In this document: piece after piece, positions 11,233 through 55,192 of the stretch
How the letters are laid out: every line of letters starts with the position of its first letter
Position numbering within the stretch: position 1 is the stretch's first letter
Assembly (NCBI GenBank): GCA_015232315.1
Contig: JADFZZ010000022.1
Span: 1 to 64,000 of the forward strand
Direction of reading: 5' to 3'
DNA from: SAR324 cluster bacterium
GTDB taxonomy: Bacteria > SAR324 > NAC60-12
Length of the DNA: 64,000 bases
Notes under the pieces: model-generated
Told to the model about the DNA's origin: nothing
Seen by the model: the letters and a program-made list of their open reading frames with translations, nothing else
The model's database searches: none
Program-made: the position numbers and the translations under genes

Positions 11233-11410
11233 TTAATGAAAACATAACTCATCAATCGGCGGGCAATATAAAGGATACTTCGGGCGGTGTCAGGTTTAAA
11301 AACAGAATAAGTATGAAAAATTTGACACAACTTGAATGTTAACAAGAAGCTGTTAAGGAATTGATCCTTTCTTTTCCGATATGAACAAAAATTGTTTTTC
11401 AGGAGAAATA

Positions 11411-11842
11411 ATGAAAGCAGAACACAACCGTGTATCCAAAAAAGCAATCCAGCTTTTTCTGGGAGGATTTTCCGGAATTCTGATCATCAGTGCATTGCTG
11501 ATGATTTTCCTGGGGGATGCTGACGAAAATCATGACCTCACACTCATTGGTAAAGGACAAAATGTGGTTGTGCAGATTCATGATCCGCATTGACCCAAAT
11601 GCCTTGAGCTCAAGCGGGTGGTCAACCTGCTAAAACCAGAGTATGAAGGAAAAATTCTGTTTCTGATGGCGGATATCACTTCTCAGGAAGGAAAATGGTT
11701 TGCTCAGTACCACGAGGTTCCAATCATCACACTCATGTTTTTTGGACCAGATGGTAAGCGCATCACCACGTTGCAGGGCGTGCAGACTGAAGACTTTCTG
11801 AGACGGGCCTTCAATAGGGTATTCAAAATTTCCGGATCCTGA
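11411..11842 (+). CDS. Candidate selenoprotein: membrane-anchored thioredoxin-like protein with UxxC active site
   Basis: Reading through TGA 11591-11593 gives one 143-residue protein. Residues 13-34 form an N-terminal membrane anchor. Then VVVQIHDPH leads into Sec61-Pro-Lys-Cys64, exactly where thioredoxin-fold proteins carry CxxC. Downstream come the expected fold elements KILFLMADIT, the cis-proline loop VPIITLMFFGPDGK, and a C-terminal helix. Both halves share one frame and neither makes sense alone. AGGAG (11400-11404) precedes ATG 11411. A hairpin at 11613-11631 with a GGUCA loop fits a bacterial SECIS. The likely role is thiol-disulfide or peroxide redox chemistry at the outer face of the inner membrane. 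If UGA is not decoded as Sec, this would be a nonsense pseudogene. Confidence 0.85.
11613..11631 (+). promoter_or_regulatory. Candidate bacterial SECIS element
   Basis: The RNA folds as AGCGGGU-GGUCA-ACCUGCU: seven pairs including one G-U, and a five-base loop. The loop begins 26 nt after the UGA at 11591-11593, inside the usual 16-37 nt window, and its first bases are GG. The GGUC sequence is the same as in the apical loop of the E. coli fdhF SECIS that SelB recognises. The bulged U of the E. coli element is absent. Confidence 0.75.
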
Positions 11843-54455: not shown

Positions 54456-55172
54456 TCACGAATATTGATTCAGCAGGACCATTTCGGGAGCATGATCGGG
54501 CACGGCTTTGATCACCGCAAGAGAAATCCTGTTTTCTGAATTGAGAGCGTTCCAATAGGTTTGGGCAATTTCTGACAAATTACCACGCAAGGGAACCAGC
54601 AACGGTGTGCCTGAAAAAGAGGGAAGGGGGGAACCATCGCCCTGATAGGTTGTTACCAGATAGCCATAACCGGGTTCAATGTGCGGATAACGATAAAACG
54701 CGTGGTTGGCTGTGTCAGCCTTGAAGGGGTTGGCGGTGAGGATGGACAAACTTGCGCGGGGCTCTGTTCCCAAATCAAGCAAACCTGAAATCCTGGGCGT
54801 GAAATTGGGAGCGTCCGGTTCATGTTTTTCTCCTTGCAGACTGTCCTCAAAGGTTTTTCCCTGTTTGAGTCCGTCATGAATCACATCGGTATGACTGCCA
54901 TTGGTCACAATATACTGACTGCCGAGAACCCTGAACGCATTGTAGATGATCAATGAGGGATCACTCACTTTGGCGGGATCTGCCGGAGTTGTTTTGAGGA
55001 TGTTGTTTTCATACACAAACTGCCGGTTGCGACTGTTGGCACTGCGTCCCATGATCCAGTACACCATCATCCATTCCCGGAGATCGTTCCTGCCAATAAT
55101 GATTCCTCTCCCCGGATAGGGATTGGCACGGAGGTGGGTTTCAAGATTATGGACGGCCTGTTTTTCCAGCAT
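54456..55172 (-). CDS. IMP cyclohydrolase-family protein (PurO-like)
   Basis: 238 residues from ATG 55172, which follows GGAGAAA at a good distance; a TTG 18 bases upstream is possible. LRANPYPGRGIIIGRN and YWIMGRSANSRNRQFV match the IMP_cyclohyd family (archaeal PurO and bacterial relatives), which closes the purine ring to IMP. IVTNGSHTDVI and NFTPRISGLLDL are also typical. It follows rng by about 20 bases. Whether it is the main cyclohydrolase or a side enzyme depends on whether purH exists elsewhere. Confidence 0.85.
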   Translation of the reverse strand: MLEKQAVHNLETHLRANPYPGRGIIIGRNDLREWMMVYWIMGRSANSRNRQFVYENNILKTTPADPAKVSDPSLIIYNAFRVLGSQYIVTNGSHTDVIHDGLKQGKTFEDSLQGEKHEPDAPNFTPRISGLLDLGTEPRASLSILTANPFKADTANHAFYRYPHIEPGYGYLVTTYQGDGSPLPSFSGTPLLVPLRGNLSEIAQTYWNALNSENRISLAVIKAVPDHAPEMVLLNQYS

Positions 55173-55192
55173 AAGACATTTCTCCGACAAGA

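Follow-up and report, generated by a model that had tools for sequence, protein, structure and literature searches.

A membrane-anchored thioredoxin-fold UxxC protein of SAR324 bacteria appears to represent a new or at least unnamed selenoprotein family

Several selenocysteine (Sec)-containing proteins with a thioredoxin (Trx)-like fold have been described. In UxxC and CxxC oxidoreductases, it is established that the first residue of the motif acts as the attacking nucleophile and the last one as the resolving residue. The best solved relatives of the SAR324 protein described here are the thioredoxins (PF00085 / TIGR01068), among them Sec-containing thioredoxins with a UxxC motif. The SAR324 protein shares with them the fold, the location of the redox pair where the first helix begins, and the UxxC spacing. 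However, it carries a membrane anchor and the motif HDPxUxxC instead of WCGPC, and it reaches only 24.5 bits with the TIGR01068 model, for which the equivalog cut-off is 96.8. Moreover, thioredoxins have a cis-proline (Pro75/76) before strand beta3 and an Asp at position 26, whereas the SAR324 family is devoid of the cis-proline and has an invariant Gln in place of Asp26. Among the NCBIfam selenoprotein models, TsoX (NF045809) is nearest to the SAR324 family. Both have the UxxC motif and a proline two residues before the Sec, and a weak profile similarity to TsoX was detected in 9 of 15 members (best E-value 2e-5). By contrast, the motifs differ (HDPxU in the SAR324 family, HSGNPxU in TsoX), and the one member that was tested scored 17.1 bits against a cut-off of 52. 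GOS_C (NF045500), the HUIPC thioredoxin-like protein (NF047660) and SaoT (NF040730) also combine a Trx-like fold with UxxC; the former two models gave no match to SAR324 members and the SaoT model was marginally matched by one member (E-value 0.008). None of the NCBIfam models fits the SAR324 family above its cut-off. Our literature search retrieved no paper naming a Trx-like selenoprotein family of SAR324, and a single study was found on selenoproteins of SAR324 or Lambdaproteobacteria, in which SAR324 single-cell genomes were classed as 'orphan SelD' in 2016 (PMC5029168).

The gene is located in the 5.25 Mb genome (88 contigs) of a SAR324 cluster bacterium, within a window of 64,000 nucleotides, which is the whole stretch of DNA that was analysed. 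Computational analysis established the gene, its recoding signals, the Sec machinery, the exchange of Sec for Cys and the fold. The frame on the forward strand (11411-11842; M...IHDPH-U-PKC...GS) comprises 143 codons if the internal TGA is read as Sec, and its product matches the Pfam Thioredoxin family PF00085 with 28.8 bits (gathering score 23.5). The ATG at 11411 is preceded at a distance of 5 nt by a Shine-Dalgarno-like AGGAG (11401-11405), as read from the sequence, and the frame terminates at a TGA (11840-11842). The only internal stop codon is the TGA at 11591-11593, which encodes residue 61, the first active-site position of the Trx fold and the first residue of the UPKC motif. The translation therefore agrees with the earlier note, in which an in-frame TGA at the first catalytic position of a frame otherwise open over 143 codons had been reported. 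Gene callers take this TGA as a stop and cut the protein at residue 60, and downstream of it there is an ORF of 74 codons that could begin at the GTG at 11618. Both would fit a TGA that is an ordinary stop codon or that stems from a sequencing error or from mutation in a pseudogene, with the downstream frame being a relic.

However, the distribution of the TGA among homologues argues strongly against a relic. A tblastn search with the TGA read through identified matches with E-values of at most 0.001 in 30 of 58 genomes, the source genome included; two of the 30 had only marginal matches to generic thioredoxins, and the lowest E-value was 1e-45 when the window itself was excluded. In a profile search of 52 genomes of the phylum, the gene was found in 28, of which 27 belong to one family (f1) of the SAR324 class and one (G045) to another. 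Twenty-two distinct genes from 22 genomes of the class contain one in-frame TGA, always in the same codon. In seven further genes from six genomes, all of a single genus (g2), a TGT codon for Cys occupies this column, and the motif is DPTCVVC or a near variant of it. On either side of the TGA, the protein sequences of the homologues are about 50% identical. The protein encoded in the window is 54% identical to a member from genus g7 over the full length. The invariant residues include Q55, H57, D58, P59, U/C61, C64, L67, R69, V71, T107, L108, F110 and F111, and the signature of the family can be written as HDPxUxxC...LKRVV. Hence, residue 61 is Sec or Cys in the relatives, as the earlier note's interpretation demands, and a misread TGT or TGC is excluded because the identical TGA recurs in 22 distinct genes, each from a genome of its own. 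The SECIS hairpin downstream of the codon and the Sec machinery of the genome, both described below, likewise speak against a stop codon or a relic. We regard this explanation as ruled out by the conservation of the TGA across genomes and assign it a vanishingly small probability. Beyond the phylum, no match was detected in 385 genomes (17 + 291 + 77) of three other phyla, a coverage so limited that it sets only a weak bound on the distribution of the family.

The frame that is open through the TGA would also be compatible with a stop codon reassigned to another amino acid such as Trp, or with unspecific readthrough. However, the homologues have Cys and never Trp at this position, and the same gene uses TGA for termination. 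Moreover, the genome encodes everything that the earlier note had listed as Sec machinery. The selC gene for tRNA-Sec (C1:207406-207500) has the anticodon UCA according to ARAGORN and scores 62.4 bits, above the Rfam cut-off, and the genes selB (C41:18139), selA (C6:90323) and selD (C28:50700) were found in the same genome. The Cys homologues together with this machinery rule out the reassignment of the stop codon, and readthrough of this kind is regarded as extremely improbable. The selD gene has an in-frame TGA of its own and encodes a Sec-containing SelD (TCGUAAK; region G000:C28:50500-51900). The Sec pathway is broadly present in the genomes of the SAR324 class (G000-G030, G045 and G049), including those of the Cys-form genus g2, in one genome of which selA is just a partial match. 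In G025, an assembly of five contigs, the selD match (G025:C1:69500-71300) contains two TAG and one TAA codons besides the TGA; this selD gene may be broken or affected by assembly errors.

A SECIS hairpin is located 26 nt after the TGA (11613-11631). It consists of a 7-bp stem (AGCGGGU/ACCUGCU) and the apical loop GGUCA (11620-11624), and its folding energy is -10.8 kcal/mol. The published bSECIS model allows loops of 3-9 nt, stems of 4-16 bp, a spacing of 16-37 nt and a minimum free energy of at most -7.5 kcal/mol, and it also requires a G in the first two loop positions (PMC13188914); the hairpin agrees with the model in all these respects. An Rfam scan of the window returned no family at the gathering score, and the SECIS element was not recognised by it. 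When we applied our own coding of the published criteria to the 3312 TGA trinucleotides that the two strands of the window contain, 26 of them (0.8%) proved to have a fitting hairpin downstream, and two of these 26 lie in a frame that is open on both sides. The second of these, at 54954 (+), is antisense to an ORF of 244 amino acids (54456-55190, minus strand) and was judged to be a chance occurrence.

The codons that form the hairpin are fixed in the Sec-form genes: AAG for Lys, GTG for Val and GTC for Val are each used in 22 of 22 genes, AAC for Asn in 17 of 17 and TCG for Ser in 19 of 19. Outside the hairpin, conserved Val, Gly, Leu and Arg residues are encoded by many codons, and the invariant Gly49 uses all four. 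Synonymous differences are accordingly rare at the hairpin, where they reach 0.12-0.24 of the expected number, the lowest of 143 windows in this comparison, with a median of 0.84. This frozen codon choice provides the strongest evidence for the putative recoding signal. The Cys-form genes lack the hairpin. Covariation is uninformative because the stem hardly varies: five of the seven pairs are invariant, 4 of 21 distinct sequences have one mismatched pair, and the one double-sided change, by which the window has G-C in place of A-U, does not exceed what is seen in shuffles. The support for the predicted hairpin is thus conservation and not covariation. In this genome, the TGA of selD is likewise followed by a hairpin (AGUCC-GGUC-GGACU), and its apical loop is the GGUC also found in the hairpin of the Trx-like gene. 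A common apical loop of two SECIS elements in one organism would be favoured by a single SelB, and it suggests a SECIS loop specific to the lineage, by which further selenoproteins could be found. Taken together, it is practically certain that 11411-11842 encodes a genuine selenoprotein. SelB and tRNA-Sec(UCA) would decode UGA-61 as Sec, guided by the hairpin just downstream.

The Cys forms constitute a single clade on a long branch. The Sec form in G045, from another family of the class, would favour Sec as the ancestral state, in a tree of which the deep forks are weak. The Cys form of g2 did not arise from a loss of the Sec trait, since the g2 genomes keep the Sec machinery. The N-terminus of the G045 homologue (G045:C285) resembles a signal sequence and ends in ASAC, and this protein is possibly a lipoprotein rather than a helix-anchored protein.

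Hydropathy and charge count place a membrane helix at about residues 16-35 (11456-11515), with a net charge of +3 before and -4 after it; AlphaFold2 models a helix at residues 20-33 with low confidence. Residues 51-143 (11561-11839) form a Trx-fold domain. The AlphaFold2 model, for which an alignment of 15 rows served as input, has a pLDDT above 90 for 99 residues, which includes most of the domain, and the order of its elements is beta-alpha-beta-alpha-beta-beta-alpha. A Foldseek search of the PDB with this model returned thioredoxins with an E-value of 1e-7 and TM-scores, normalised by target, of mostly 0.7-0.84. The anchoring in the membrane and the Trx fold that the earlier note had proposed are therefore borne out by hydropathy, Pfam, AlphaFold2 and Foldseek. 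According to the positive-inside rule, the charges around the helix indicate that the N-terminus lies inside and that the Trx-fold domain is probably on the periplasmic side. By contrast, the assignment of VPIITLMFF as the cis-proline loop had to be abandoned. Pro104, which lies three residues before Thr107, occurs in no relative, and in a profile alignment to thioredoxins the cis-Pro position corresponds to Ile106, in a column that all 29 members fill with Val, Ile or Thr. In the same alignment, the buried Asp26 of Trx is replaced by the invariant Gln55. Since the equivalents of cis-Pro and Asp26 are lost, the protein has a Trx fold but is a non-canonical thioredoxin, and as judged from the alignment their absence argues against the standard thioredoxin mechanism.

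Our main reading is that the gene encodes a Sec-decoded, periplasmic, membrane-held Trx-fold UxxC redox protein, to which we assign a probability of roughly 85%. The single N-terminal helix would hold the protein in the inner membrane with the Trx domain in the periplasm. Sec61 would attack as the nucleophile and Cys64 would act as resolving residue in a selenol/thiol redox centre, which would most probably reduce oxidised periplasmic targets such as disulfides, sulfenic acids or peroxides and in turn be re-reduced via a DsbD-type membrane transporter. The redox chemistry, the direction of electron flow and the partner are what we infer for this protein, and a role as periplasmic reductase seems somewhat more probable than not. 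A DsbD-family transporter is encoded in the genome and is a plausible electron source. The neighbouring genes are unrelated, and no shared partner gene was found in the neighbourhoods examined across genera: the neighbours differ by genus, mostly point away and encode, for instance, an FMN oxidoreductase, a hybrid kinase, ScpB, GidB, isopropylmalate dehydrogenase and a Na/H exchanger.

As an alternative to thiol-disulfide exchange, the UxxC motif of the selenoprotein might serve to bind or pass on a metal, be it copper or mercury, or an iron-sulfur cluster. The aliphatic or Thr residue at the cis-Pro position of all members and the invariant His-Asp-Pro that precedes the Sec would fit such a site. 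According to PMC2757866, which refers to Su et al. (2007) for this point, the cis-Pro has been proposed to keep metals from binding to CxxC; on this basis, a metal-related role is conceivable for the SAR324 family. However, none of the neighbours examined handles metal, UxxC together with the geometry of the Trx helix is typical of redox sites, and the exchange of Sec and Cys is usual among redox catalysts, and we therefore consider a metal site unlikely. The more specific idea that the family is restricted to SAR324, anchored and periplasmic, and that the loss of cis-Pro and the buried Asp turned the Trx site into a Sec-based site for metal binding or transfer, is likewise regarded as improbable.

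It has also to be asked whether this redox selenoprotein has already been catalogued. SAR324 bacteria are common in the ocean, and the domain cd02950, which we take to be TxlA, is presumably a membrane-anchored Trx-like protein. The marine-metagenome (GOS) family 'Trx-like 3' (Zhang and Gladyshev 2008; PMC2398784) is presented as a UxxC class that is enriched in marine samples, has weak similarity to cd02950 and comprises 212 sequences with Sec and 183 with Cys. It resembles the SAR324 family in being marine, distantly Trx-like and possibly anchored, in its UxxC motif and in having both Sec and Cys forms. However, it is defined only by the weak domain similarity, and the comparison was made at the level of domain, motif and counts. 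Furthermore, a 2026 inventory, which covers 119 families of prokaryotic selenoproteins, mentions neither cd02950 nor SAR324, and, as outlined above, the NCBIfam models do not recognise the SAR324 proteins above their cut-offs. An identity with 'Trx-like 3' is thus a tentative proposal that we consider rather doubtful, albeit a serious one. Of the 'probable new selenoprotein' of the earlier note, the selenoprotein has stood; its novelty holds in the sense that no named family exists in NCBIfam or the 2026 inventory, while the family may already be contained in 'Trx-like 3'. The SAR324 protein therefore appears to represent a new or at least unnamed family of Trx-fold UxxC selenoproteins.

The present analysis adds a well-supported membrane-anchored selenoprotein family to SAR324, a widespread uncultured marine group. 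The presence of the whole Sec pathway in these genomes contrasts with the listing of SAR324 single cells as 'orphan SelD' (PMC5029168). Moreover, the genus that bears the Cys form and yet keeps the Sec machinery offers a natural Sec-to-Cys comparison, and the family as a whole provides a natural test of the role of the cis-proline in the thioredoxin fold.
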